A program made the position numbers and the translations under genes. Of a DNA stretch of 64,000 bases, positions 18,932-61,948 are shown piece after piece. The first letter of the stretch is position 1, and each line of letters opens with the position of its first letter. Source of the DNA: Zygnema cylindricum (taxonomy: Eukaryota; Streptophyta; Zygnematophyceae; Zygnematales; Zygnemataceae); contig JBBHKE010000302.1 of assembly GCA_037447655.1 (NCBI GenBank), forward strand, positions 1 through 64,000, written 5' to 3'. Under the pieces are notes generated by a model, which was given only the letters and a program-made list of their open reading frames with translations, searched no databases and was not told where the DNA came from.

Positions 18932-20809
18932 TGTTGAAAAAGGGAATTTTGTATTCTATCTCTTTTGTTAGTCTAAGGTCATTCTACAGTTCTCATACTT
19001 GTCGCAATCAACTGCCAGGCAGCCATGGCTGTCTCAGGCACATAAGACACCCCCGATAACAAGACATGCGGAAAAAACACCCCGTGCAAAAGGAAGAAAC
19101 ACCCCCTGCAAATAACAAGACAGGCAGAAGAAACACCCAGGCAGAAGAAACACCCCCTTGTAGATAAGAAGACAGGCAGAAGAAACACCCAGGCAGAAGA
19201 AACACCCCCTGCAAAAGGTAGAAACACCCCCTGTAGATAAGAAGATATGCAGAAGAAACACCCCCTGCAGATAAGAAGACAGGCAGAAGAAACACCCTGG
19301 AAAAGGTAGACAGTCAGGAGCAAGAAACACCCCATGCAGATAAGAAGACAGGAAGAAGAAACACCCCCTACAGATAAGAAGACAGGCAGAAGAAACACCC
19401 CCTGCAAAAGGTAGACACCCATTGCAGATAAGAAGACAGGCAGAACAACACCCCCTGCAAAAGGTAGACTGTCACGAGCAACCCCTGCAAAAAAGAAGAT
19501 AGGCAGAAAAAACACCCCCTGCAAACCTGCAGATTGCAAATAAGAGACAGGCAGTAGAAACACCCCCTGCAAACCTGCAGGTTGCAAATAAGAGACAGGC
19601 AGTAGAAACACCCCCTGCAAACCTGCAGATTGCAGATAACAAGCAATCTGCAGATAAGAAGCAGATTGCAGATAAGAAGACAGGCAGAAGAAACACCCCC
19701 TTCAAACCTATAGATAAGAAGACAGGCAGAAGAAACAACCCCTGCAAAAGGTAGACTGTCAAGAGCAAGAAACACCCCCTGCAGATAAGAACACATGCAG
19801 AAAAACACCCGCTGCAAAAAGAGACTGCGAGGAGAAAGAAAGAAGACAGGCAGAAAAACACCCCTTGCAAAAAGATACTGCGAGGAGAAAGAATTGATCC
19901 AGTGACCACCGGATAAATGCTTTATCATGTGCCTGTTTGCTCTATCCGAGGATCTTGATGAAGCGACACATATATCATATGTGATAAATATATAAATGGT
20001 GGCGCTATGACACATACAAAACAAAATAAACAGGAAACGTACAGTACCGCACGAAATACTATACCATACGAAATAAATGAAACGACATTTAATTTCAACA
20101 GACGAAATCAAATGTCATTCGCAGTCAACGGCAACGGTCAACACCGAATGACGGCTATAGAAATTCAACGGTCAAGAAAGAACAACGGCTGTAGAATTTC
20201 AACGGTCAACAAAGATTATTCATCGCGCAGTCAAGATCGAACGGCCAAAATTGATCTTCAAATTACGAACGGACGGCACGCGTGAGTGTCGGCATGCTGG
20301 AAAGACTTTTTGGGAGCACTTCCCAAAGTGGAGGAAAACTGACACGTGGCACCATCCTATAGGATATTAGAGAAGAAAGGGACAGGATGGCGACGAATAT
20401 TCGCCACGTGGCAGACCGAGAGTGGTGTCGCATAATTCCGTACATAAAGTACTGCGACAACAATTGATTGTATATGCATTATGTAGTGTATGATAGTTTG
20501 ATTCGTCTAGTGGGGCTATTAGTAAGTTCTTAGGACTTATACTTTTTTTGAAAGCCCTTTCTTCCAGAGGCCATCTGTATAAATTGGTTGTTTTTAAACA
20601 GCTATAACTTAATGCTCATGGGTGCAATTTCAGTGATTCTTTTTGCTTTGAACTCAGTGGAGTCCAAGCTACACAAGGGTGTAGTCGATTAGAGTTTTTG
20701 CGTGCCAAGGTGGCACTTATTCATTGCTAAAATCAAAAGTGCAAATATTATCCTAGAGGCTTCATATAAGCTAGACATTTTATGGACAAATGGAGGTCAC
20801 AGAATTACA
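18932..20809 (+). repeat. 5' LTR of the copia element, minisatellite-expanded
   Basis: It starts TGTTGAAAAAGGGAATTTTG and matches the 3' LTR to about AATTACA at 20,809, giving TG...CA termini. Its length of about 1,880 bp exceeds the 3' LTR by 800 bp because of the array at 19,040-19,880. A TATA-like TCTGTATAAATTGG lies at 20,575, where the 3' copy has TCTGCATAAATTCG. The shared sequence includes the first 20 bases after the presumed gag ATG (20,790), so the LTR edge or primer site is uncertain. Confidence 0.75.
19040..19880. repeat. Minisatellite, about 33-bp units, in the 5' LTR
   Basis: The units are variants of AGATAAGAAGACAGGCAG followed by AAGAAACACCCCCTGC, with a secondary AAAAGGTAGACTGTC block, repeated more than twenty times. 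The 3' LTR has a single unit at about 25,298-25,345. Long Cys/Leu-rich frames on the minus strand here are only the translated repeat. Confidence 0.9.
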
Positions 20810-21737
20810 CGTTATGGGCCCACCCTCTAAGGTGCCCGTTTTCAATGGAACAGGGTTCATATATCGGGAAACAATGATGAGGGGTGCATTATTTGAAAAC
20901 CGACTATGGGGCATTGTGATTGGTCGTATGCGCCGACCAACTGCAAAATTGGATTCCACCAGGGTTTGGAGGATCTCAATTCACAGGAGGATCTGCAGAG
21001 GCAGAGGTTGTAGAGGATGTTCGAGAAAGCATCGTGTCGGACACAGCGAAGGAGAACGGAAAGGAGAAACTCACACCGATGGCTACTTGATCGGTTCCGG
21101 TAGCAGATGTTAAGAAAGCCGAGACAAATGACACTGAAATAGGGGATTTCAACAACACCGTGGCGACTCATTTTATTCTCGGACGTCTCACTCAAGCAGT
21201 TGCTACACATCATCTTCATGTGGACAAGACGGACGAGTTGTGGGAGGCTCTTTTCAACATTTACAAGAGTGGTAAGATTCAGCAGCAGAGGCTGGCTGAT
21301 CAGAAGGTACAAGCTTATGTGTGCAACAGGGAAAAGATGTTAGACTTTTGTAATGACTTGGTCGCGTTATTCATGGAGTCGGAGAGTGCACGAAAAACGG
21401 AGACCAAGAAAGAGAAGGTGAATACTTTGTTGATGAAACTCCCATATGATTATGAAAACATTGTTAACAACGTTCTGGATTTGCTAGATCATCAATGGAT
21501 CTGGAACTCCGTTGTGGGGATGATTTTGGTTTGGAAAAGCACAATTGAGATTCGGAGAGGAGGAAAGAGTATTCAAGCATTGGCTGCTGGAACTAACTAG
21601 GAAAATAAGGATTTCAAGAAACCTTATGGAAACTTTGGTAGAGGAAGAAGAGGAAACAATCGGACGGATCTGGATCGAGGCCTCCGAAGGGGCTTTGTCA
21701 CTTTTGTAAGAAGTTGGAACATTACATGACGGAGTGT
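20790..21737 (+). pseudogene. Copia gag (capsid and zinc knuckle), broken
   Basis: The frame starts MEVTELHVMGPPSKVPVFNG and is matched by the other copia copy at 62,788 (MGDTKLQVIDLPSRVTIFNG). A frameshift near 21,110 leads to the UBN2-like capsid part (21,160-21,600: LWEALFNIYKSGKIQQQRL...EKMLDFCNDLVALF...KVNTLLMKLP). A stop and another shift follow. The zinc knuckle at 21,696-21,737 is intact as C-x2-C-x4-H-x4-C. Gag would package element RNA in virus-like particles; this copy cannot. Confidence 0.8.
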
Positions 21738-23230
21738 ACTAAACTGGCAGCGTTGAGATTAAAAGAGGGGCGGATCGGAAAATCAACCGCAGGAAAGAAG
21801 AAGGCATTTGTGGCAACACAAGTCATGGGAAAGGATTCGGATGAGGATGATGGAGAACTTCTCCTCAACAAGGAGGCGGAGGTGAAAGGTGAGTCGGAGA
21901 TTCCAAGGAGGCAACTGTGTGCTTTCGGTGGAGTAAGAAAAGCTCCTGAAGAAGGATGGATTATTGATTGAGGAGCCTCTATGCATATCTGTAGAGAAAA
22001 ACCGTTGTTTACCAAAATGAGAAAGATCCTTACTGTAGAGATAGAGTACGAGGATGGGAGAATAGTAACCACTAATTTCGTGGGATTTGTGGATCTGAGA
22101 GTCTTAGTTGATGAGAAGACATTCATAGTCATTTTCTTTGATGTTCTTTTTATTCCAGAGTTGAACAAGAATCTTATCTCTACGTCGGTCTTAGATGATA
22201 AGGGTTTTAAGACTAGTGCTAAGAAAGGAGTCTTTGTTGCTAGCTATGAGAATGAAGTGTACTTCACAACTGAAAAGGGTAGCCAAAAAACGTTTAGGCT
22301 CAATTTGAGTAATGGGAAGAAGGGAGTTTATTGTGCCGATGTAAGTGATTTAATGACGTGGCATAAAAGATTGGGACATATGCATCTAGATAGATTGAAA
22401 GAAATGAAGAAAATGGGTGTAGTTGAGGGAATACATTTTGGAGATAATGAGACCTTGGATGATTGTAGTGGATGTGCTCAAGGCAAGGCCCAATGATTGC
22501 CTTTTCCAAAAACCGCAACATATAAGGGTGAAAAGGTCTTAGATTTGATTCATACTGACATATGGGGACCGGCCAAAGTGCCATCAGTTGGAGGGAAAAG
22601 ATTTATGCTTACTATCACTCAAGATTGGTCTAGATACTCTAAAGTATATTTCTTGAAAAACAAATCTGAGGCTTCGGCTTATTTTAAAGAGTATAAAGCA
22701 TGGAGTGAGAAGCTTCTTGAGACATCTTTAAAGAGAGTGGGAGTTATAATAGGGGGTAATACCCTTCTAATGAGTTTGAGGATTTTTTGAAAGAGGAAGG
22801 GGTTCTACACCAAAAGACTGTTCCAAAGAACCGAGAACAAAACGGTGTAGTCGAGAGACTAAATCGGACATTAAATGATAGTGCCCGTGGTATGCTGTCG
22901 GATAAAAAGATAATAAAAATTTTTTCGGCAGAAGCTATGAATTATTCTAACTATCTCAAAAATAGAGTCTTTACCTCGACGTTAAAAGGACAAACACCTT
23001 ATGAAAGATGGACCGGGAGAAAACCTAATATTTTACACTTAAAGGTGTTCAAAAGTCAAGTGTTTAGTCTAAACAAAAGCAAAATGTGATTGGAAGTTAG
23101 ATGTAAGGGGAAAGCCAAGATACCTACTTGGGTATGATACAAATATAAAAGGATATAGAGTTTATGATCTCAGAAGAGAAGACATCATTCTAGTAAAACA
23201 CTTGGTAGTCATGGATGAAGGATAGTCCAT
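21738..23230 (+). pseudogene. Copia protease and integrase, broken
   Basis: The protease active-site motif (WIID-x-GAS) is hit by a stop codon at 21,969-21,971 exactly where the serine of DSGA would be. The integrase zinc domain is recognisable (WHKRLGHMH...CSGCAQGKA, 22,355-22,496), with a stop just after it. The catalytic core follows (IHTDIWGP at about 22,548). The stretch that should hold the second catalytic aspartate, near 22,745-22,775, is frameshifted and substituted. The glutamate region NGVVERLNRT (22,842) is still readable. The C-terminal YLLGYDTNIKGYRVYD motif is in another frame at 23,120. Confidence 0.8.
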
Positions 23231-23347
23231 AGATCCCTTTAAATACACTAAACCGGTTAAATTAGAATTGAATCCGAAAATGAGTTACATTCAGATTCTT
23301 CTAACCGAACTCCGGTTCAGCCTGACCTTGCAGAAAAAGAGAAAAAA

Positions 23348-25170
23348 TTGACCGAGAGTGACCCTCTCTTGGAGTCACAGCTTCCGATTCAAACCGAGGA
23401 AGAAAACGAGGAAAGACCGAAAATGGATGATGAACGTCCGGAAGTGGACTCCACGGATAGGGGAGAAGATAAAGCCGTTCGGAGAAATCCAAGATTAACC
23501 TCCATTACAACAACAGAGTTTGAAGGAGGAAAGAGAAGCAACAAGAGACTTCAAGAGAGACAAGTGAACAACAAGGTAACTAAGTTGTCGCATTTGAGCG
23601 AACCCCAGACTTACTCGGAAGCAAATAATAGTCTGGAATATAGTAGATGGATGACAACCATTAATGATGAGATGGCTTCCATTATGGAAGCAATCGCAAG
23701 GGAGTTGGTGGATTGTCCTCCGGACAGAAAGCCGATAAGATGGAAGTGGGTATTTAAGTTGAAACCCAATGCGGATAACACTATCGACTGATACAAGGCC
23801 AGATTAGTGGCAAATGGATTCACACAGAATGAGGGAATTGATTATAAGGAGGCTTTTAGCTCCGATTGTAAGATTTCCCTCCGTCCGGATTCTAATCAGT
23901 CTAGCGCCAGCAGGTGACATGGAAGTGCACTTGATGGACATCAAAACCGCTTTCTTACACGGAGAATTAAAAGAAGAGATATTCATGCGACAGCTAGAAG
24001 GATTTGTGGAGAAAAGAGAAGAAAGTAAGGTGTGCACATTGATAAAGTCTCTTTATGGACTAAAGCAAGCTCCACGCCAATGGAACAAGAAGCTGGACGA
24101 GTTTTTGACGAGTTTGGGATATATACGAATCAGTTCAGATCATTCCATCTATCTATTTTAAGACGAGGAAGGTATAAATTTCATTGCCATCTATGTTGAT
24201 GATTTGATTGTTTTGAGTAAATCAATGGAGAAAATTAATGATTGAAAAAGGATCTAAAGAGTAGATTTGAAATGAAGGACTTGGGAGAGGCAAAGTATAT
24301 TTTGGGAATTCAGATGGTGAGAGATAGAGAGAAGAAAACAATTAGAATAACTCAAAAATTAGCAATAGGAAATATGCTTGAAAAATTTCAAATGGATAAA
24401 GCAAATAGTTGTACGACTCCAATGGACTTAAATAATGAAAATGAGGGGAGCTCACAAGAGGAAGTCTTGATTTTGGATAATGAGTTAGGACGTGAGGAAA
24501 GCGAGTTTGTGCAAACTATTCCATACAGACAAGTTGTCGGTAGTTTGATCTATTTTATGAACTCTACTCGTCATGATATAGCAGCAGCTGTAGGGATATT
24601 AAGTACGAGTTTGAATGATCCTAGGAAGAAAGATTGGGAAGCGGCCAAAAGGGTCATGCGATACTTGATAGGAACGAGAGATCTGTGGTTGCATTTGGGA
24701 GGGGATAATACTGACATCACCACTTGGAGTGATGCCAGTTATTGGGATGCTCGGATGAGGAGGTGTACTTCTGGGTAAGTGTTGTATGTTGGGAAAAGGG
24801 TTTGTTATTGGAGCAGTAAGCAACAAAAGGTGGTTGCTCAGTTCACCATGGAGGCTGATTATATGGCCTCGTGTTTGGCTGTGAAAAAAATAATGTGGGT
24901 GAAATCTTTGCTTTTAGAACTTGGATATATGAAGAGAGGAGTGCAAAAGATATTTTGTGATAATCAAGCTGCGATTACAATTGCAGCAAATCCTAAGCAT
25001 CACTTTAAAGCAAGGTATATTGATATTCGTTTGAGCTTTGTTAGAGAGAAGGTTGAGAATAAAATAATTAGTTTGAAATATAGACCGGATGGAGAAATGG
25101 TAGCAGATATGATGACTAAGCTTGTTCCTTCTCCCAAATTGATATTTTGTAGGGAGAAGTGTGGATCGAA
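23348..25170 (+). pseudogene. Copia reverse transcriptase and RNase H, broken
   Basis: RVT_2-type reverse transcriptase is visible from about 23,590 (ETYSEANNS.. SRWMTTINDEM) through WKWVFKLK, a stop at 23,789, then MDIKTAFLHGELKEEIFM (23,937), LYGLKQAPRQWNK (24,050) and the catalytic YVDD at 24,192-24,203. Stops occur at 24,162 and 24,243. The copia RNase H follows: TWSDASYW (24,723), a stop at 24,776, the EADYMA block (24,853), CDNQAAI (24,955) and RYIDIRLSFVRE (25,015). It copied element RNA into cDNA in the ancestral form; five or more lesions now prevent that. Confidence 0.85.
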
Positions 25171-25199
25171 GCAAAAGATAGACGAGAAAATAAAGGGAG

Positions 25200-26276
25200 T
25201 GTTGAAAAAAGGGAATTTTGTATTCTATCTCTTTTGTTAGTCTATGGTCATTCTACAGTTCTTATACTTGTGGCAGTCACTAAGAATTGCCTGTCTCAGG
25301 CAAATAAGAAGCCAGGCAGAAGAAACACCCCCTACAAAGGTAGACTATCAAGAGCAAGAATTGATTTTGTGACCTCTGGATAACTGCTATACATTGTTAA
25401 ATTGCTTTATCCAATGGGTTTTGACGAAGCGTTACATATGTTGTATGTGATAAATATATAAATAGTGACGCGACGACACATACGAGACGAAATGAATAGG
25501 AAACGTACATTACCGCACGAAATACTGTATTATACAAAATAAACAAAACGACATCTAATTTCAACGGACGAAATCAAATGTCGTTCGCAATCAACGGCAA
25601 CAGTCAACACGGATTGAAGGTCGTAGAAATTCAACGGTCAACACAGAACGATGAGCGTAGAATTTCAACGGTCAACAAAAATTATTTGGCGCGCGGCCAG
25701 GATCGAACGGCCAGAATAGATTGCTGAATTACGAACGGACGGCACGCGTGAGTGCTGACATGCCGGAAAGAATTTTTGGGAGCACTTCCCCAAAGTGGAG
25801 GAAAACTAACATGTGGCACCATCATATAGGATGCTAAAGAAGAAAGGGACAAAACAGCGACGACTTATTTGCCACGTGGCAGATCGAGAGTGGTGCCGCA
25901 TAATTGCGTACATAAAGAACTGCGGCTACCGTACATTGTATATACATTATGTAGTGTATGATATTTTCATTGGTATAGAGGGGCTATGAGTAGGTTGTTA
26001 GGACTAATACTTTTTTTGAAAGCCCTCTCTCCTAGAGGCCATCTGCATAAATTCGTTGTCTTTGAACAACCATAACTTAATGCTCATGGGAGCAATTTGA
26101 GTGATTCTTTAAGCTGCAGACTCAAGGGAGTTTAGGCTACACAAGGGTGTAGTCCATCAAAGTTCTTGCATGCGAGGGTGGCACTTATTCATTGCTAAAG
26201 TCAAAAGTGCAAATATTATCCTAGAGGCCTCATATAAGCTTACATTCTGTGGACCAATGGAGGTCACATAATTACA
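25200..26276 (+). repeat. 3' LTR of the copia element
   Basis: Begins TGTTGAAAAAAGGGAATTTTG directly after a purine-rich tract and parallels the 5' LTR, with only one minisatellite unit. Length is about 1,077 bp. Confidence 0.75.
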
Positions 26277-50868: not shown

Positions 50869-51015
50869 AAATATGTGTCTTTCTTATTTTTATTTTCTAG
50901 GTCATTTCTAAAAGAACAAAAATAAAAGGTCTTAGCTAGGCCCTAACCTCTATCTCCCTAGTCTCTATACTTGTTGTAGTCATTAATGACCGGAGAGAGA
51001 GAGAGATAGATCCAT

Positions 51016-51743
51016 TGTCATGCCGCATCTCGTCGGCTATTTTAGTTTTTTATATTTAGGTGTTAGGACGGGCAGCCGCTACACTAATTTGTATTTGGGT
51101 ATTATTTGGGTTTCGCAGAACCGTACGACGTGTACTGTACGACTTACATTACCTGGAATTCCCGCGACTACAAATTGGACCGTACCTTCGGTCCTACCGT
51201 ACCTACTTTCATTTCTCGAAATTATGGCCGACGACAATTTGTAATTATTTCGCGCAAGGAAGCATCTCGACCGTCGACGCAAAGTATACGATTCTCGTAA
51301 TATCTCATCTTGGCCGTTGACGCGTGTGACAGACAAAGATACTGTCAGTTCTGACGAAGCTACGCTATTGGACTATTTTAAGTCGTGAACCATTTGGAGG
51401 TTCACGCATTCACATGTAGATAGGAAGGGTTTTAATCCGTAGGTTATAGATTTTGTAACGTAGGGCATAGGATTTCGGCTTCCTATTGGCTGAATCCAAA
51501 CTAGACGCAAATATTTGCATAGCACGCTGTACTCTGATTGGCTTGTTTTCGCTAGGCGTAGTTTTGGTTACTTAGTTCATTTCGCATCATTTCCTGCACA
51601 CAATTTTCAAGTGCAGGAATTATTCATTTGATTTATTTTCAGTATTGAGGATTCTCTGCAGCCATCTTTTTATTTGTGAAATTGTCCGGACAGCTTAGAG
51701 GCGATTTTCTGCCTTTGCGTGAAGCGTCTAGTTTTCTATTATA
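51016..51743 (+). repeat. 5' LTR of the gypsy element (internally deleted)
   Basis: 728 bp, beginning TGTCATGCCGCATCTCG. Relative to the 3' LTR it lacks about 318 bp, removed between two copies of a CCGTACGAC-TACATT sub-repeat. Over the shared 600 bp about 17 differences were counted by eye, nearly all transitions. A conserved inverted motif TTCCTGCAC...GTGCAGGAA lies at 51,591-51,620. The true 3' edge may be later, since a TATAAATAG box lies at 52,131. Confidence 0.7.
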
Positions 51744-53092
51744 TTATCATATCTTGTAAAGCCTTACAAATTAATCTATACGGCTTCGGCCAAGACCTAC
51801 ACGGTTTCCCTTCACTTTTCTCATCCTTCTGAGTGGATTTCGACCGCGATCTCACAACACAAACTTCTTTTCCCGATTGTGGCTGAACTTTAATTAGTGT
51901 GGAAGTTGCATTTTGGGAATATTGTTGTGTTGTTTTTATTTATTGTGATTGTTTATTTATTTCTATTTGGCTTTTGCGCATCTTTTGGGTTTGGTTATCT
52001 CAAACCTCATAAGTGTCGGGCATATTGTCATTTTCGGTTTTTATTTATCTTTCTCGGTTGTTTATGCTTTGATTTATTCTATTTAAGTATAAATTCAGAT
52101 TATCCTTGATAAGATAACTCCTGCAAGGAATATAAATAGACCGTGGGGCCTAGTGGTCATCCATCGACTAAGTATTCCTGCACTTGAAAATTGTCTTATT
52201 TTCATTTCTCGCTTGTTTGTTTTTATTTCAATTTCGGTTTTCTTTTTATTTAAAGAAAAAAAAAAAACAAAAATATCAAAAATATATATTTATAGATACA
52301 TTTCTACAAATATCTATAACTGGTTTAACATTTATAATTACCATTTGCTTGTTTGTTGACGTTTTATCTTATTGGCCAATTTTCGGCCAACGATATACTA
52401 CACTAACTTAAGTATTTGGTTTTTGTTTTCCCCATTTTCTTTGTTATATATCTTGAGCATCGTTTGCTCACATTGAGACATACTTCACTAAGGAGTGGAG
52501 TTAGTGGAGCGGATCCGTTCTTGGGAGCTTTGCAAAACTTTGGTTGTAGCAAACAACAGCAGTTCACCCTTGGCAATCACCAGATTGCTAAGAGTGTTAT
52601 GTAAGTATCACGATGCCTTGCGGGTACAGGCGCGTGTTAAGGTAGTCTGTTGATCGTATAGAGGGACCGTGGTTGGAGTGGATTAGTGTTAATCCACTTG
52701 TATTGATCATTGCATTTGTCCAGCTTTCCTTGCTTGCTATCTGGCCCTGAGTGGCCTTAGCTGAGTTTGCTTTGCCCGGAGTGGGATTTCTTCCATAGAT
52801 CTTGCCGTTGGAGGCATTGGTTAGCACTTTTGTGGATTGTGCCGCTTTAGATCTGCACTTGGGAGTGCTCGGATAGTAAGTTATTTGCCTTTATAGATCT
52901 GGCCCTTCGGCCTTGTCCCCTTGTTTGCAGGGTAGAAGGTTTTGGTAATACGGCTTCCTGATAGATCTGGCCATCAAGGCCCTGTTAGAGATTGATTGGC
53001 TGATTGGACAAAAGAATGGTGTGGCCTGGCATTTGAAGCATATCGGATAGATCGGCTTTGTTATCTGGTCATCATTTGGTGTTATCATTTTT
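51744..53092 (+). other. Gypsy leader region
   Basis: Non-coding stretch between the LTR and the first gag ATG. It contains TATAAATAG at 52,131, an AT-rich block at 52,200-52,330, and four AGATCTGGCC/TATCTGGCC-like repeats between 52,740 and 52,980. The primer binding site was not identified. Confidence 0.5.
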
Positions 53093-54031
53093 ATGCCCAC
53101 CGATTGGGATAATCTTGATTATCCTGTCGGAACCACTCGATCGTTGGCCTCGTTTAGGCCCACGGAATCCGGACCATCAGATTTTTCTAGTCTTTTGGAC
53201 CATCCTTTTCTAAATATTTCGGGTCAAATTTCCCCTTCGGTTCGATCTACTCTCACCTCGGTATCTTCCTTATCATCAGTCTCTTCCACATTTTTCGAAG
53301 AGGAACCTGACCACGATTCCCTTGACGGGTCGAATTCCGATTCATTATCTTTTTGGTTTCCACAAATTACCAATCCAGTTTTATCCCCTAGCATTCCATT
53401 ATTGGAAATGGCTTCCACATCCGAGGGAGGGGGGCGCCTTCATTTCTTTTTTTCAAGAATGAAGGACACCATGACTTTATCGCATTTTCGCATGCTATTT
53501 GATACCGAAATGCGTGATCTTGCATTTCGGTACCAAGATCGGTTTGACCTACGAGTCGCTTTCTCTCTTTTAGGTCGTTACCTTCGCGGTTCAGCCCTTA
53601 CTCTTTATTCCCGCAAGTATGATTCCATACTTGCGATGACTGAGTTTTCTCCAGCGTTCTCTGGGAGTCCTGCTATTATAGGACAACCAGAAATTCCTTA
53701 TCAACCGGGTATCCCGAAAGTTCTTGATCTCAACGGCGATGTTATTACAGCAGCAATTGCGGAAATACCGCAACAGTTTGCTATAGCCGCACGTGTTGGA
53801 ATTCCAGCACGACCAGCGATGACTATCCCTATATTGGATCCGCTCTCTGTCATGTTTGAAATGTTGCAAGCGGAATACCGTATGCAAAACCCTGACCAAG
53901 TTCGCGAGTTAATGAACTTCGAACGGAAGTCAAGAGAGACTGCCCCTGCCATGCGTGCTCGTATGGAAGCTCTTCGTGAAGCATTGCCGGACTTAATGTC
54001 AGATGCTGAAGCTGTCCAAAAATTTGTATGA
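53093..54031 (+). pseudogene. Gypsy gag, separated from the rest by two stops
   Basis: 312 codons start MPTDWDNLDYPVGTTRS. The N-terminal third is Ser/Pro-rich and acidic. A capsid-like region follows (FFFSRMKDTMTLSHFRMLF...FSLLGRYLRGSALTLYSRKY...MQNPDQVRELMNFERKSRETAPAMRARMEALREALP), typical in style of the retrotransposon gag fold. TGA at 54,029 ends it. Because the next ORF is in the same frame, and only this stop and a TAG at 54,071 intervene, gag, protease and methyltransferase probably formed one polyprotein of about 1,230 residues. Confidence 0.75.
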
Positions 54032-54088: not shown

Positions 54089-56782
54089 TTGAAGTTCACT
54101 TTCAACCAAGCCGCCCAGCATGCCGTGGAATACGAAATGCAAAATTGTTGGTGGGAAGCCCATGACCGACCTAAAGCGGTCCCGAAAGAACCGATTGTTC
54201 CACCATGGAACAATCCTCGTCCTAACAACCGGCCTCCTAAAGTCCCGGCCATGGGAACCCCACCTGTTGCTCTCGAAAACCGATTATGTTTCCGATGTGG
54301 GAAGACCGGGCATGATGCCCGAATGTGTCCAGACAAAACTGCTACCTGTACACATTGCAAGCAAACCAGACTTTATGTCCATCGTTGCCATATAAAAAAC
54401 CCAGAATATTCCTATCAGATCCAAATTAAAAGTGGTGGCATCCCAACTCGATCCGCAAGACCGGTTCAACCGGTTAAAGAACCGGAGAAAGACACCACTC
54501 CACCTAAGGTATCTCGAAGAGAGAGAGAGCGTTTAGAAATGCAAGAGCAAATGGCGGCTATGATGAAAAAACAATTTGCAGCTTTCATGACCCAAATGAA
54601 GCCACAATTTACAGGCATGGCTCGCACTGTGGTACACATGCCCACATTGGCAGGTCGAATCTTACGAGATTCCACCATCCAACAACGAGAGGCTACGTTC
54701 GACAAAGGTTCGACCGATCACAGTCGTGATGGTAAAACACCTAACACGCGTATTCCTTTGTCAATCACTAAAGAACCTTCTCCTCCCTTGCCCAAAACCG
54801 CTTCAGCCATCGCGGCTGAAGCTCTCAACATAGTGGATCGAAATGTACATGAGGCACACCGTGTGAAAGAACGCTTGTGCATCCTTTCCGCTATGATTTC
54901 CGACTCACCGAAAATCTCCCCTATCTCCTTACCCTCCAATAGCTCGGCTGCAGCTGCCGTGTTACAAGCACTTCAGCTGCACAGAAATCTTGCTGCTATT
55001 CAGCCTATTTACATAGAGGAGCGAAAGTCTCTCGATCCTCACATCAGTTTTTTGGATAATGCGAAGGGTGCATTGTTGATTAATGGTATAGCTCCTTCCC
55101 TGCCTCTTATGGATACGGGTGCAAAGCCGGTGATATTGGGCTCTAGCTTTGCACTGAAGCTTGGTCTAACTCCGGCCAAGCTCAAGTCCACTTCTACTCG
55201 CTTGTTAACATCAGCGGGTACAACCGAACCGGTCCTAGGAATCACTAAAGAACCGCTTGTTTTCAGGTTCCAGAACGAAACGGCCACAGACTTTGCTGAA
55301 ATCTCGGTTCACGCTCTAGTCACTAAATGTAGTGACTATGAATGCCTAGTGGGACAGGACGTTATATTTCGTATAGGGGGTGGTGTTGACATGCATGATC
55401 AGACATTTTCTTATAGGCCCACTAGCTTCCCGGAACGCAAAATCTGCATTCCACTAATTTCCGCTAGGAAGCCCATGCCTATTATGGCAAATTCGGCCAC
55501 CTCGATACCTGCATTTTCAGGGAATTTGGTGGGGGCCGAAATATTTCATTCATTGTCAGCAGAAGAAATTTTGCCCGATAGTTCTTACTTACCAGAAATC
55601 TTCAGTGACCCAGGTTTTCTTATATATACGAGGGAATTTGACCGAATCTATAACCAAACCTTGTCAATTCCACTTTCTCCCATCTCTCCCTCAATCGCAG
55701 TTCCTACAGACTCTTCTGGGTTTCTTCCCATTGATTGGAATCCGGTCCAATTGAAACCTCATCCAAATGGATTAGTGATTTTGGACCTTTTTGCTGGAAT
55801 AGGCACTTCTCTCCTGGCATGTTTGCGGAATGGATTATTAATCCGATTTTATTATTCGGTGGAGATTGATCCGTTAGCACGGAAAGCACAATTACATCAT
55901 TGTAATCTGTTGCATTCCCAATACCCGCATTTGTTACCAAAATCTGCATACGAGCATATGCATACTGCCCTTCCACAAGTCATCCGGATTGTGGGCAACC
56001 ATCACTTACTGGAAATTGGTCTAATCGATCTAGTTTTTGGCGGATGGGAGTGCCAGGGAATGTCTCGCGCGGGGAAAGGGCTCGGATTAGCCGATCCCCG
56101 CACCAAATTATTTTTTGAGTTGATTTGCATCCTGCATTTTCTACAAACTTTAGATCATCCTATGGGGTATATCTTGGAAAATGTCGCGGCCTATAATGAT
56201 GCAAGACCTACGGTTTTGGCTGATTATCAACGAATCGAACAATTAATTGGACCGCCTTTTATTATTGACGCGGCTCGCCATGGTTCACTAGCACACCGGG
56301 TTCGCTCCAAATGGACGAACCTGATCGATATTGGTAGACTCCGTGAGGCCAACTTGTTCGTTCGTCCTCCTCCTACAGACATTCAGGCTGCCCTTCTTCC
56401 TTTTCATAAGGTGCAGCCTTGCATTCAAAAGGACTGTCCCCCTAATTTCAGTGTCAATGTCCCGGGTCAACCTCTCAAGGTGCTTCCTACCTTAGTTTCT
56501 TACCCACATTCACATGCATTCTCTAATGAAGGTCCTGGCATGCTCCGAAACATTCATACTGGTGAGCTCGAAGAGCCTACCTCTACGGAACGAGAACACC
56601 TAATGCATTTCATTCCCGGCACTACTGCCGCTCCTGGTCTTACTGAACGTCAAAGATGCACTTTATTAGGTCGTGTCATGGACCCTCAGTCTTTGTCTTT
56701 TGTTTTAGGTCTTGGGTATTCAGCTGGTCGCCACTCAAAGCACATCCGTCTCAACCAGCTAGGGGGGGGAATGCATCACTAA
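54089..56782 (+). CDS. Gag C-terminus, retropepsin and DNMT3-like C5 cytosine methyltransferase
   Basis: 897 codons without a stop. Residues 67-80 are a CCHC knuckle (CFRCGKTGHDARMC); residues 87-100 are a weaker second one. Residues 340-347 are the aspartic protease site (LMDTGAKP). From about residue 560 a C5 methyltransferase follows in standard, unpermuted order: motif I DLFAGIGTSLLA, II YYSVEIDPLA, IV DLVFGGWECQGMSRAGKG with the catalytic cysteine, VI YILENVAAY, VIII AARHGSLAHRVRSKWTNL, and a C-terminal block SNEGPGM..R...E...E..H...TAAPGLTERQRCTLLGR like the DNMT3 end (motifs IX-X). The proline before the catalytic cysteine is replaced by glutamate (ECQ), which may be normal in this group. 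The standard order argues against plant DRM, which is permuted. Predicted role: methylating cytosines in DNA, perhaps the element's own. No intron signal was seen. Confidence 0.85.
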   Translation: MKFTFNQAAQHAVEYEMQNCWWEAHDRPKAVPKEPIVPPWNNPRPNNRPPKVPAMGTPPVALENRLCFRCGKTGHDARMCPDKTATCTHCKQTRLYVHRCHIKNPEYSYQIQIKSGGIPTRSARPVQPVKEPEKDTTPPKVSRRERERLEMQEQMAAMMKKQFAAFMTQMKPQFTGMARTVVHMPTLAGRILRDSTIQQREATFDKGSTDHSRDGKTPNTRIPLSITKEPSPPLPKTASAIAAEALNIVDRNVHEAHRVKERLCILSAMISDSPKISPISLPSNSSAAAAVLQALQLHRNLAAIQPIYIEERKSLDPHISFLDNAKGALLINGIAPSLPLMDTGAKPVILGSSFALKLGLTPAKLKSTSTRLLTSAGTTEPVLGITKEPLVFRFQNETATDFAEISVHALVTKCSDYECLVGQDVIFRIGGGVDMHDQTFSYRPTSFPERKICIPLISARKPMPIMANSATSIPAFSGNLVGAEIFHSLSAEEILPDSSYLPEIFSDPGFLIYTREFDRIYNQTLSIPLSPISPSIAVPTDSSGFLPIDWNPVQLKPHPNGLVILDLFAGIGTSLLACLRNGLLIRFYYSVEIDPLARKAQLHHCNLLHSQYPHLLPKSAYEHMHTALPQVIRIVGNHHLLEIGLIDLVFGGWECQGMSRAGKGLGLADPRTKLFFELICILHFLQTLDHPMGYILENVAAYNDARPTVLADYQRIEQLIGPPFIIDAARHGSLAHRVRSKWTNLIDIGRLREANLFVRPPPTDIQAALLPFHKVQPCIQKDCPPNFSVNVPGQPLKVLPTLVSYPHSHAFSNEGPGMLRNIHTGELEEPTSTEREHLMHFIPGTTAAPGLTERQRCTLLGRVMDPQSLSFVLGLGYSAGRHSKHIRLNQLGGGMHH

Positions 56783-57950
56783 GAAAATCTTTCCGTACCA
56801 CTCTCCAAGGGACCACATTTCATTTTTTCCTCTTTCCTTCTCCAATTCCACCAGTTCCGGAAATCTCTATCTACGATTTCCTCAATCTTAGCCATATGTC
56901 CTGGTCTATTCCCACATACACGGTTGTCCAGTCTACAAGTCCCATGCATATTCCACCCACTCCTCATTGGAGTGTTGCTTTTCCAACACGCAGTTAGAAT
57001 CATTCAGTTAATTGCCTTAAACAGACACGTGTATTTTACAAGTTAGGTCAAACGCTTATCGCAAATGAGCAGTTGGCCTTTGCACAAGCCATGGAAGCTA
57101 TGACAACCGAAAATCCCGATGCTCATAAATGGAAATTTGGCACCAATCTAACAAAGGCCGAACAAGAGTTACTGAATGACGTAGTTTTACAAAATATCAA
57201 TGCCTTTGCCTTTTCTATGAATGATTTGGGTCGTCACACCGCTTATAAAATGTCGATAGATCTCGAAGATGATCGCCCTATATTTAAACCGAAACATCGT
57301 TTGTCAGAAACTGAATAGGAAATGGTAGACAAGCGATGTGCTGAACTAGAGGAAGCTGGCCTAATCTATCGGTCAGACTCCACATTTGCAGCTCCCACTG
57401 TCATGCCTCGGAAAAAGGATTCCGATGGTAATTTTACTGAACTTCGAATGTGAGGTGACTATCGTGAACTAAATGCTAGAACAGTTCAAGATCGCCATCC
57501 CATGCCTCTTGCCGAAGAAATATTTGATCATGTAGGCGGAGCAAATTATTTTAGTATCCTTGACCTCTGTCAAGGATTTAATCAAATCGAGATAGAGGAA
57601 AAAGACCGGCATAAAACTGCCTTTTGGGGTAGCGACGGCCGATGGGAATGGGCCGTAATGCCATTCGGACTGAAAAATGCTCCGTCAGTATTTCAAAAAG
57701 TCATGGACTCCGTTCTTGGAGGCTGTAAGTTTGCTAGATGTTACATCGATGACCTTATCATTGCCTCGGCTAGTATCGAAGAGCACGCTGCTCACATCGA
57801 ATGGGTATTGACTGAATTGAAAAGGGTCGGATTAAAATGTCATCCAGTGAAATGCACCTTTGGAGCCGAGGGAGTGCCTTACCTCGGCCATTTTATCTCG
57901 GCTGAGGGGATCACTCCTCTCGAAGCAAAGGTAGAGGCAATCAGTAAATT

Positions 57951-58604
57951 GCCTGCTCCCACGGACCTCACCAGTTGCGAGCTTTTCTCGGACTTGCTAA
58001 TTATTATCGCAGGTTTGTATCTAATTTTAGCACCATCGCATCTCCGTTAAACGACCTTCTCAAGAAGGAAGTGGCGTTTATATGGGGTCCTGATCAGATT
58101 TCCGCATTTCAAAAATTAAAAACCGCTTTATCAAGTGCTCCAATTCTCCGTCCTCCCAATCACAAACTCCATTTTTGTCTTCAAACAGACTTTGGGAAAC
58201 CCGGAATCGGTGCCAATTTGACACAAAGAGAGTTGAGCGGAGAGGAATACGTAGTTGCTTACGCGAGTAGAAGCAATGCCTGCTCCCACGGACCTCACCA
58301 GTCTGCGAGCTTTTCTCGGACTTGCTAATTATTATCGCAGGTTTGTATCTAATTTTAGCACCATCGCATCTCCGTTAAACGACCTTCTCAAGAAGGAAGT
58401 GGCGTTTATATGGGGTCCCGATCAGATTTCCGCATTTCAAAAATTAAAAACCGCTTTATCAAGTGCTCCAATTCTCCGTCCTCCCAATCACAAACTCCCT
58501 TTTTGTCTTCAAATAGACTTTGGGAAACCCGGAATTGGTGCCATTTTGACACAAAGAGAGTTGAGCGGAGAGGAATACGTAGTTGCTTACGCGAGTAGAA
58601 GCAA
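57951..58604 (+). repeat. 327-bp tandem duplication within pol
   Basis: GCCTGCTCCCACGGACCTCAC starts at 57,951 and again at 58,278; both copies cover the RT-RNase H junction to AGAAGCAAT. Copy 1 lacks one base in CCAGT(C)TGCGAG and has a few substitutions, so reading from RT shifts frame there, while copy 2 is in the frame of the downstream domains. Confidence 0.9.
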
Positions 58605-60288
58605 TAACCGGGCCGAATCAAATTATAGTAGCTACGAGGGAGAGTGTCTAGCCGCGGTTTGGGGAGTCGTTCACTTGCGCCATTATTTGTACGGAAAACC
58701 TTTCACACTCTTAACTGACCATCAGCCCTTACATTGGCTGATGACGAACAATAAGCTTTCCGGGAAGTTAGCCCGATGGGCTTTAATCTTACGAGAATAT
58801 GACGTTGAAATAATTCACCGACCAGGTCGGCTTAGTCTAAACGCAGACGGAATTTCCCGAAATCCTTTGCCCCGAACAAGAGATAACGGAGTTCGACAGG
58901 ATTTCGATGACGAAGATGTTCCCGTCATGTCAATGGGTTCTTATCTTACTTACTGCCTGGCGTCTATTTCGAACCCCCGTCCCGCCACAGATCCTTGGCG
59001 TGATGGGCCTCTCATTCTTTTCCTATCCTCCCAGACCTTCAGTTCCGGCACCACCTCTGATGAAAAAGACAGGGTGAAAAAGAGGGCCAAAAGCTACCTT
59101 TGGCTCGGGGGATCTTTAGTTCGATTGTTGGCAGACGGAAGCCATAGGCACGTTCCACGGCCTATTGAGCGTCTTTCTCTCATTGAGCAGATTCACACCG
59201 AGCTTGGTCACTACGGTACCAAGCGAACGTTAAGTCTAGTTCAGGCACGGTATTGGTGGTCAAGAATGCAAGCTGATGTCGCTGCTATTCTGCACAAGTG
59301 TGCCGCCTGTGACCGTCTCCGAACTTCTTTCTCTAACCGGCAGACTACGCTTCAACCTCTACCTATTAGAGGTTTGTTCTATCGATGGTTGGTCGATTTG
59401 GCTGGACCTTTTCCTATCTCACGTAGGGGTAAACAATATATCATGATTATGATTGAAAATTTCAGTAAGTGGGTAGAAGTCGTAGCCCTGCCTCACAAGA
59501 CCGCTAAGTTAACCACCGCAGCTTTTAAGGAACATGTCCTTATGAGATACGGTGCCCCAGCCGAGGTCCTTACGGATCAAGGTACAGAATTTCGGGGAGA
59601 ATTTCAAGAGATGCTTGATGAGGCTCTCATCGATCATCGTCGTACTAGTCGGGATCACCCCCAGGCCGATGGCCTGGCTGAACGAGCAGTTTAGACATTT
59701 AAGCGTGCCTTGCGTAAGCATTGCTTAGAAAAACACATTTCGGTTTGGGACGAGTCCCTCGGTTACATTACCATGGGATATCGCATGTCCGTTCAGGCTA
59801 GTCTAGCTAATTTCAGCCCGTTTTATGTTTTATTTGGGCGACAACCGTTGCTCGGTCGCAATATTCAGAAGGCCGCAACCTTCCCACTTCCGCTGATGTT
59901 TGACACTATTTTTTTGGAAGAACTCACTCGCCGTGCTTCGCTTTTTGCCCGTCAAATGCCCATGGCTTTTGATAACCTGCAGATTGCCCAGCACCGGGAC
60001 ACACTTCGGTTTGCCACCACTCGCAGCGGCAGCTATAGGCCGCAACAGAAGCCCTATCGGGAGGGAGATTATGTTTAATTTCGCAGGCAATCTTTTGACA
60101 CTTTGGACACGGATGTTTCCGCACACATCCTACGGATTATCGAGGTGGATCCGAACGGGATGTTGGGATTACAAGGAGCGGACACGCGGACTTTCCGAGA
60201 GCACTCCAAGAATTGTGCTCCATGTTACTTACCAGATTTGTCGCAGGATATGGATCCCATGCGGATGCCGATTACGGAGGTGACGGCA

Positions 60289-60423
60289 TGTACCTTTTCT
60301 CATCGATCGGACGGGGAAACTACCATGTTACTTTGTGATCATTGCAATCAGGGGTTTCACATAGAGTGTTTGGTGCCACCTTTATTGGCAGTTCCAGATG
60401 GTCACTGGTTTTGTCACGGATGT
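60289..60423 (+). other. PHD finger at the integrase C-terminus
   Basis: The spacing LLCDHCNQGFHIECL then PPLLAVPDGHWFCHGC fits the PHD pattern C4-H-C3 (C-x2-C, C-x2-C, H-x2-C, C-x2-C). The first pair reads CTFS, so the second zinc ligand appears lost or replaced by serine or the adjacent histidine. The conserved aromatic before the last pair (W) is present. PHD fingers commonly bind histone H3 tails, so this module could steer integration. It is separated from the catalytic core by the stop at 60,078. Confidence 0.75.
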
Positions 60424-60465: not shown

Positions 60466-60482
60466 AGAGCCGGGGGGGGGAA
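60466..60482 (+). other. Gypsy 3' polypurine tract
   Basis: AAGAGCC followed by ten G and AA directly after the pol stop is the expected primer site for plus-strand synthesis. A sister tract (TAGGGGGGGGAA) lies at 56,760-56,771, at the end of the methyltransferase ORF. Confidence 0.55.
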
Positions 60483-60674
60483 TAAACCGACCTAACTATA
60501 ACTAGCTAAGTCGTTGACCTTTCTTTTTCTTCCACCTTGCCTGTTGCGGTATTTATCCATTTTTACTTTGGTGTTTTATTTTATTTACGATATCTCGCTA
60601 TTATTTGAGTTTAAGTTGAGCGCAGCTGATGATATTGCATGCACCTTCATGTTATTTGACACATGCACGACAGC
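60482..60674. repeat. 190-bp repeat, copy 1 (before the 3' LTR)
   Basis: From AATAAACCGACCTAAC to CACATGCACGACA, repeated at 61,722-61,910 with few changes. It follows the purine tract immediately, the place where an LTR normally begins. Confidence 0.85.
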
Positions 60675-61720
60675 TGTCATGCCGCATCTCGTCGGCCATT
60701 TTAGTTTTTTATATTTAGGTGTTAGGAAGGGCAGCCGCTACACTAATTTGTATTTGGGTATTATTTGGGTTTCGCAGGACCGTACGACGTGTACCGTACG
60801 ACCTACATTTTCCGTGATTTCCGGGATGGCGATTTGGATCGTACCCGCGGTCCTACCGTACGACGTATAATTTTTGCGATTTGCGTCGACGGCGGATTTG
60901 ATTATGTCGCGTCGACCGTACGACTTACGGCGACCGGAATTCTCGCGGTCACAAATTGGACCGTACTTGCGGTCCTGCCGTACTTATTTATTTTTTCCGG
61001 ATTTCTCGCCAACGACACATTTTCGAATCGCGTCGAGAAAAACAAACTTACCGTACCATATATATCTTACGCGATTTCCGTCGACGGCGGATTCGATTAT
61101 TTTACGTCCACCGTACGACTTACATTACCCGGAATTTCCGCGACTACAAATTGGACCGTACCTTCGGTCCTACCGTACCTACTTTCATTTCCCGGAATTA
61201 TGGCCGACGACAATTTGTAATCATTTCGCGCAAGGGAGCATCTCGACCGTCGACGCAAAGTATACGATTCTCGTAATATCTCATCTTGACCGTTGACGCG
61301 TGTGACAGACAAAGATACTGTCAGTTCTGACGAAGCTACGCTATTGGACTATTTTAAGTCGTGAACCATTTGGAGGTTCACGCATTCACATGTAGATAGG
61401 AAGGGTTTTAATCCGTAGGTTATAGATTCTGTAACGTAGGGCATAGGATTTCGGCCTCCTATTAGCTGAATCCAAACTAGACGCAAATATTTACATAGCA
61501 CGCTGTACTCTGATTGGCTTGTTTTTGCTAGGCGTAGTTTTGGTTACTTAGTTCATTTCGCATCATTTCCTGCACACAATTTTCAAGTGCAGGAATTATT
61601 CATTTGATTTATTTTCAATATTGAGGATTCTCTGCAGCCATCTTTTTATTTTATAAAATTGTCCGGACAGTTTAGAGGCGATTTTCTGCCTTTGCGTGAA
61701 GCGTCTAGTTTTCTATTACA
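60675..61720 (+). repeat. 3' LTR of the gypsy element
   Basis: 1,046 bp, TGTCATGCC...TTCTATTACA. It contains three diverged units of a CCGTACGAC-rich motif (around 60,795, 60,918 and 61,108). The 5' LTR retains one. Confidence 0.75.
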
Positions 61721-61721
61721 T

Positions 61722-61910
61722 TAAACCGACCTAACCATAACCAGCTAAGTCGTTGACCTTTCTTTTTCTTCCACCTTGCCTGTTGTGGTATTTATCCATT
61801 TTTACTTTGGTGTTTTATTTCATTTACGATATCTCGCTATCATTTGAGTTTAAGTTGAGCACAGCTGATGATATTGCATGCACCTTCATGTTATTTGACA
61901 CATGCACGAC
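61722..61910. repeat. 190-bp repeat, copy 2 (after the 3' LTR)
   Basis: Near-identical to 60,482-60,674, then breaks off into unrelated sequence (CCATGGTTGCC). It implies a duplicated or truncated second LTR-like unit. Confidence 0.85.
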
Positions 61911-61948
61911 ACCATGGTTGCCTTAACAACCAGAGAGGGAGGAGAACT

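Follow-up and report, generated by a model that had tools for sequence, protein, structure and literature searches.

A multicopy Ty3/gypsy element of Zygnema cylindricum with a DNMT3-like methyltransferase in Pol, split repeats and a candidate self-priming site

Retrotransposon-borne DNA methyltransferases were reported in 2018 in two lineages (de Mendoza et al. 2018, PMC5890265). The main text of that paper describes KnitGypsy-Dnmt3 of Klebsormidium nitens as a Dnmt3 lodged in a Gypsy Pol with DIRS-like repeats, its methyltransferase being under purifying selection (Ka/Ks < 0.2); expression of this enzyme in yeast gave no methylation, a result that the authors called inconclusive. For KnitGypsy-Dnmt3 the same main text makes no mention of PHD, target site, junction, circular form, self-priming or polypurine; its single use of TSD or duplication concerns SymbioLINE, and its single use of primer concerns cloning. 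The element described here lies in a 64,000-nucleotide stretch of Zygnema cylindricum DNA, hereafter the window. Judged against the published description, it is like KnitGypsy-Dnmt3 in its Ty3/gypsy Pol, unpermuted Dnmt3-type methyltransferase, DIRS-like repeats and purifying selection, so that the class is indeed known in principle, as the initial annotation had it. SymbioDIRS-Dnmt3 and SymbioLINE-Dnmt of dinoflagellates, as presented in the same main text, also carry a cytosine methyltransferase, and the former shares with the window element a layout of two repeats, A and B, in the order A-coding-B-A-B; however, they depend on a tyrosine recombinase or on LINE machinery, whereas the window element has a DDE integrase (PMC5890265). 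The split direct repeats are likewise common to the window element and to DIRS, PAT and Ngaro elements, but the tyrosine recombinase and the absence of target duplication of the latter are not. A further, possible likeness is to the Tf1/sushi elements, which are self-priming in that the 5' end of their RNA anneals to the primer-binding site: the window element has a putative primer site complementary to the predicted RNA 5' region. Tf1/sushi elements have, to our knowledge, ordinary LTRs and no methyltransferase. Chlamydomonas REM1 is an algal Gypsy-like element with a PHD finger, encoded in a separate reverse-oriented ORF, and we know of no methyltransferase in it. A search of titles and abstract openings, with most subscription papers and preprints outside its reach, returned nothing on chlorophyte methyltransferase Gypsies or on elements of this kind integrating from joined cDNA.

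Frame translation recovered 54089..56782 of the forward strand as 897 codons without a stop, at the coordinates first annotated. This frame encodes, in order, a nucleocapsid, a protease and a DNMT3-like cytosine methyltransferase (MTase) with unpermuted motifs, and is followed 3', in another frame, by the RT, RNase H, integrase and PHD finger of a Ty3/gypsy element (Table 1). Pfam detected the DNA_methylase domain PF00145 at residues 564-701 (E 3e-9); the fusion of the MTase behind a zinc knuckle and a DTGA protease, also noted in the initial annotation, holds, with both knuckle and protease below the Pfam cut-off in the window protein. The RT and RNaseH-integrase parts had Ty3 Gag-Pol (7q5b) and Ty3 RT (4ol8) as their best solved matches, and this kinship, together with the order protease, RT, RNase H, integrase, places the element in Ty3/gypsy. 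Domain scans, solved-chain matches and trees thus agree with the earlier reading of a Ty3/gypsy element with a DNMT3-like MTase between protease and RT. No tyrosine recombinase was found in the four window proteins scanned with Pfam, and an rve integrase was present. In the PHD finger of this copy one zinc ligand appears, by eye, to be altered.

Table 1. Features of the Zygnema element, in window coordinates
Feature	Position	Strand	Basis
Left target-site duplication CCAT	51012..51015	none	
Repeat A, left copy (A1); end set from other copies	51016..52175	+	
Arm within A, perfect complement of primer site (predicted RNA start)	51600..51620	+	
Self-complementary primer-binding site (putative), end of A1	52174..52194	+	
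gag frame, stop at 54029, further in-frame stop 54071; frame shared with next ORF	53093..54031	+	
Open frame, nucleocapsid + protease + methyltransferase	54089..56782	+	
CCHC zinc knuckle, residues 66-81	54284..54331	+	Pfam, below cut-off
Aspartyl protease with DTGA, residues 331-402	55079..55294	+	Pfam, below cut-off; over cut-off in relative P0002
DNMT3-like C5 cytosine methyltransferase, residues 546-885	55724..56743	+	Pfam, alignment, solved-chain profile, trees
Reverse transcriptase core (YIDD); same-frame upstream stops 56995, 57316, 57451	57502..57990	+	
328-bp tandem duplication in RT/RNaseH	57950..58605	+	By spacing; missing from siblings C2577, C829, C1915, C1344
RNase H + integrase (H2C2, rve)	58255..59691	+	
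PHD finger, Pol C-terminus	60289..60423	+	
Polypurine tract immediately 5' of B1	60471..60482	+	
Repeat B, inner copy (B1)	60483..60672	+	
Two-base spacer GC of B|A border (CACGACA-GC-TGTCATG)	60673..60674	+	
Repeat A, right copy (A2), without ~430 nt of 3' part	60675..61721	+	
Repeat B, outer copy (B2)	61722..61911	+	
Right target-site duplication CCAT	61912..61915	none	

The TTG start of the open frame is mechanical, as the frame extends upstream into gag across the two stops given in Table 1. A sibling element has a single open frame of 2395 codons spanning both this stretch and RNaseH-integrase, and the stop at 56780 is therefore damage of the window copy. The copy is degenerate in other respects: in agreement with the stops already annotated in gag and pol, the remaining ~1449 gag-pol codons hold 7 stops (those within the shifted 328-bp duplication excluded), and the tandem duplication and the shortened right A repeat add to this. 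At that stop density the chance of a frame staying open is about 0.01 for 897 codons and 0.18 for the 353 MTase codons; hence the open MTase frame alone is weak evidence of selection, and comparison from copy to copy is the better test.

The unpermuted set of main C5-MTase motifs with a catalytic Cys is borne out by aligning the protein with 8 relatives, two of them incomplete (P0009 is cut before motif I, P0003 at its end): we take DLFAGIG to be motif I, GGWECQ motif IV, LENV motif VI and HRVRSKWTN motif VIII, followed by a IX/X-like block. The catalytic Cys is residue 655 of the frame; it is kept in 20 of 20 genomic copies, the full W-E-C-Q in 15 of them. C5-MTases normally have Pro in motif IV, where the window protein has Glu; W-E-C-Q is typical of the window family, and W-P-C is found in a second MTase family of the genome and in the aligned elements with the order RNaseH-MTase-integrase (RH-MT-INT). 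Identity of the MTase across relatives is 29-48%. When a profile of nine MTase domains, the window's included, was compared with solved chains, DNMT3A was the best match (71 bits, E 8e-19), with HhaI and DRM2 at 49 bits and DNMT2 at 23. The best matches being DNA methyltransferases, a non-methyltransferase identity for the domain was rejected, and the homology searches and trees uphold its initial assignment.

A careful tree of 57 rows united DNMT3A and DRM, phage DNMT3-like and retroelement enzymes in one clade as against HhaI and others (100/97), without a firm order among the three. The retroelement MTases together with five proteins of unknown context formed one clade (100/99), and a sixth such protein, P0016, grouped with RH-MT-INT. 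This tree omitted six long or odd rows (P0009, P0100, P0105, P0109 and two from phages) as well as 9 of the 27 RH-MT-INT rows, so that P0009, the most distant row of the order protease-MTase-RT (PR-MT-RT), has no place in it. In a quicker, earlier tree (66 rows) DNMT3A-DRM and the phage enzymes came together (81), the retroelement clade lying outside. The domain may derive either from the DNMT3 of a host or from a phage-like source. Viral contigs yielded 24 phage-type MTase loci, with W-P-C in motif IV; a search of these contigs for relatives of the RT/integrase or of P0002 confirmed none.

Successive searches of public proteins gave 8, 101 and 144 matches (120 of the 144 listed). In a domain scan of 226 proteins, the window's included, the MTase was joined to Gypsy domains in 129: protease-MTase in 5 (window included), MTase-RT in 2, and RNaseH-MTase-integrase or part of that order in 122; the remaining 97 had a match to the MTase model alone. 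New here is that this MTase is joined to Gypsy domains in at least 128 public proteins apart from that of the window, and that it occupies two places in Pol, PR-MT-RT and RH-MT-INT. Among the matches listed, the named sources are Monoraphidium neglectum, Haematococcus lacustris, one JGI identifier and a Minisyncoccia bacterium MAG; we read the identifier as Chromochloris zofingiensis and take all three to be green algae, and the MAG match was taken for contamination. The two positions might suggest that two Gypsy arrangements captured their MTases independently from related sources, with no move within Pol, and Ty3 was the sole MTase-free Gypsy in the comparison. However, the MTases form a single clade in which RH-MT-INT is nested among PR-MT-RT lineages, the RT tree agrees weakly with this nesting, and a PHD finger ends both the window element and the RH-MT-INT elements. 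We regard separate captures as unlikely, if with appreciable weight; given that RH-MT-INT falls inside PR-MT-RT diversity, a move of the MTase within Pol is the simplest reading.

The host genome (353 Mb in 2689 contigs) contained at least 58 scored matches to the whole ORF, 89 to RNaseH-integrase, 116 to the MTase and 123 to PF00145; these counts are lower bounds and some rows are pieces of one copy. The initial annotation had set absence of the MTase from other copies as the mark of a chance insertion; with at least 116 match rows carrying the domain, such an insertion was rejected. A second, distinct family of MTase-bearing retroelements at C544 and C1374 has, over the part read, the order MTase-RT-RNaseH by profile, and in its member L086 a DTGA protease frame lies, by eye, ahead of the MTase. 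C750 was considered as an MTase-free sibling and rejected, the MTase being present. At C2234, C1063, C846, C2450, C2027 (324 kb), C2666 and C2495 an RNaseH-integrase match has no adjoining MTase match among the matches listed.

Selection was examined in 20 of 30 fetched copies, those covering most of the ORF, 4 of them without a stop. In five pairs of stop-free copies pN/pS of the MTase is 0.15-0.18 (pN 0.11-0.15, pS 0.75-0.82) and that of the protease 0.16-0.25; synonymous sites in these pairs are saturated. The copies of the sixth stop-free pair, with 2 differing sites over 340 MTase codons, look recently duplicated, a sign of recent movement. With two of the four being near-identical, the five pairs are worth about three independent comparisons. 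Among all copies, the MTase has pN<pS in all 186 of the 190 pairs that were kept (>=40 codons, pS >0.1), with a median ratio of 0.26, against 0.24 in the protease (174 pairs) and 0.32 in the linker (180 pairs). Purifying selection on the MTase among the 20 copies is thus supported; the initial annotation had read a hint of selection or of chance survival from the open frame, and selection stands on the codon comparison it had proposed, whereas the open frame itself is hardly evidence. A captured passenger without function is what the degenerate state of the window copy might suggest, as might the higher density of stops in the MTase across the 20 copies: 40 in 6594 codons, against 17 in 6486 for gag-linker and 10 in 4401 for the protease part, or 6.1 per 1000 codons versus 2.3-2.6. 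This excess is due in part to L028 and L029 being frame-shifted there; recombination as the cause of their low MTase identity was rejected, DNA identity being 92-98% throughout with single-base gaps. The passenger reading is contradicted by the ratios of the stop-free pairs, saturated pS notwithstanding, and by retention of the domain in relatives of 29-48% identity at two Pol places, and we consider it highly improbable. MTase Gypsies now comprise two arrangements, with some proteins from named green algae, an enzyme under selection and signs of recent movement.

The window element does not have the simple LTR-coding-LTR layout but is A-coding-B-A-B, its repeats being 96.6% (620 nt) and 96.8% (190 nt) identical and the first 187 nt of A 89%. 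Four copies were read at the putative primer site: in the window, C829 and C1915 it is complementary to the stretch inside A at 21 of 21 positions, and in the diverged copy C1344 at 18 of 18 with different letters. The paired change that keeps complementarity in C1344 favours self-priming; a predicted self-complementary primer site whose pairing is intact with different letters in a diverged copy is new here. Since the polypurine tract adjoins B1 and the primer site ends A1, the unit at both cDNA ends should be B+A.

Right ends were taken from 20 copies besides the window (rows 2-20 of the RNaseH-integrase match list and C1344): 13 are B-A-B, 5 stop after B1, 1 is cut off by the end of its contig and 1 has no clear form. 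At the B|A border exactly two bases stand between (C/T)AC(G/T)ACA and TNTCATGC in 14 of 14 cases, that of the window plus all 13 B-A-B copies. The A|B2 joint, where the two predicted cDNA ends meet, is by eye variable: exact in one copy, elsewhere with added bases or deletions, and with polypurine-tract letters retained in L070 and primer-site-like letters in L060. The outer ends are TG...CA with 4-bp target duplications (CCAT, AAGG, CCCT and TTGG) in the window, C829, C1915 and C1344, that is, in 4 of 5 A-coding-B-A-B copies checked; no duplication was found at the ends of C2526, whose B2 outer end is mutated, or of C2577, which ends after B1. This combination of A-coding-B-A-B with 4-bp duplications, a B|A border of constant length and a variable A|B2 joint is new, and indicates that the cDNA which integrates is probably end-joined and perhaps circular. 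The split repeats could instead have arisen by templated circularisation as in DIRS or PAT, the A|B2 differences being later deletions: A-coding-B-A-B is the DIRS-type layout, the main text on KnitGypsy-Dnmt3 says so of that element (PMC5890265), and ~430 nt of A are lacking at the window's own joint. Yet length varies at A|B2 between copies while the B|A border is constant in 14 of 14, the differences include added bases and a retained polypurine tract, and the element has an integrase, not a tyrosine recombinase, with 4-bp duplications; templated circularisation accordingly appears quite improbable.

Recombination of B1 with B2 could also account for the copies that stop after B1. In L055 and L056, two of these five, the spacer GC is still present and unrelated DNA follows it, a state that neither the joined-cDNA model nor recombination explains. 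A symmetrical cut of a circle predicts an A-B-A form as well, and the mirror form A-B-A-coding-B was not seen in C2577, the sole readable left end of a B1-ended copy, which counts against the model. The stretches from C1977, C2281, C10, C2293 and C1506 showed no left end, and that of C1807 ran into a neighbouring copy.

The explanation that we favour, at a probability of roughly 60% for the whole, is that the window holds an old, degenerate copy of a multicopy MTase Gypsy that would use self-priming, joined-cDNA integration and cDNA methylation. The RNA would start inside A1, and its 5' end would fold back and prime first-strand synthesis; ordinary reverse transcription would then yield a linear cDNA with a B+A unit at each end. 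These ends would be joined imprecisely into circles or concatemers, and the integrase would cut the border CACGACA-NN-TGTCATG within a B+A unit, inserting A-coding-B-A-B. Confidence in this account is slightly lowered by the non-independence of the stop-free pairs and by the two unexplained B1-ended copies. Also counted against it are Glu for Pro in motif IV, a CpG ratio of 1.01 and the two copies without end duplication. That a Gypsy lineage integrates end-joined (2-LTR-circle-like or concatemeric) cDNA through a DDE integrase at a palindromic repeat border, with a particle-borne MTase marking that DNA, we put forward tentatively, at somewhat short of an even chance. End-joined circles are usually regarded as dead ends of retroviral replication; if the proposal is true, they would be the productive form of such Gypsy elements. 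The pattern of junctions makes integration from joined cDNA open to test in this element.

As to the MTase, its motifs, the selection on it and its position in Gag-Pol are observed; methylation of the element's own cDNA is the most likely role that they suggest. The enzyme would be carried in the particle as part of Gag-Pol and would methylate the cDNA before or at integration, whereby the cDNA would resemble host chromatin or gain protection; the PHD finger may direct integration to a histone mark. An extrachromosomal stage would be a possible reason for the element to need its own methylation. The MTase could alternatively modify RNA or act on host chromatin, for example silencing competitors or limiting copy number for host benefit; the enzyme could work in trans, and the main text of PMC5890265 discusses as options the methylation of RNA, for the LINE type, and a lowering of transposition. 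However, the best solved relatives are DNA methyltransferases, and lying inside Gag-Pol before RT the MTase should be packaged with the template, so that we hold such targets to be unlikely.

The element shows no depletion of CpG, its observed/expected ratio being 1.01 as compared with 0.94 over the first 51 kb of the window. Private C>T changes among five close siblings affect 48 of 516 CG, 34 of 455 CHG and 58 of 1654 CHH sites (CG+CHG versus CHH, Fisher p 1.2e-7), the window copy contributing 167 of the 300 private changes. The excess at CG and CHG suggests methylation of old resident copies; it is silent on which enzyme methylates, since host enzymes would leave the same mark.

A second family of MTase-bearing elements was found in the same genome as the window element. 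In this family the domain order is MTase-RT-RNaseH, with a DTGA protease frame discerned by eye upstream of the MTase, and motif IV, which contains the catalytic Cys, reads W-P-C-Q.

Loci of the second MTase-bearing family in the host genome
Locus	Position
L085	G000:C544:125600-130400
L086	G000:C1374:25500-29500

Three public proteins (P0018, P0020 and P0021), one of them encoded by a 37-kb contig, form a deep branch within the same MTase clade as the retroelement enzymes. Their motif IV region shows S-S-P-C-Q or similar, and the domain scan of these proteins found no Gypsy domains.

Two copies of the window element lie near each other at G000:C1807:50474-61535, where the stretch taken for one copy's left end ran into the neighbouring copy's B|A border, where its repeat B meets repeat A.

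In the window itself, leucine-rich-repeat stretches with a pyrimidine-rich separator, noted by eye at 10534-11049, suggest a plant-type gene. Visual inspection also pointed to a degenerate Copia-like element (21160-25240) with pieces of gag, integrase and RT. On the minus strand, a low-complexity repeat stretch (18979-20111) contains ORFs made from a short repeated hydrophobic motif, GVFLLPVFLS-like.
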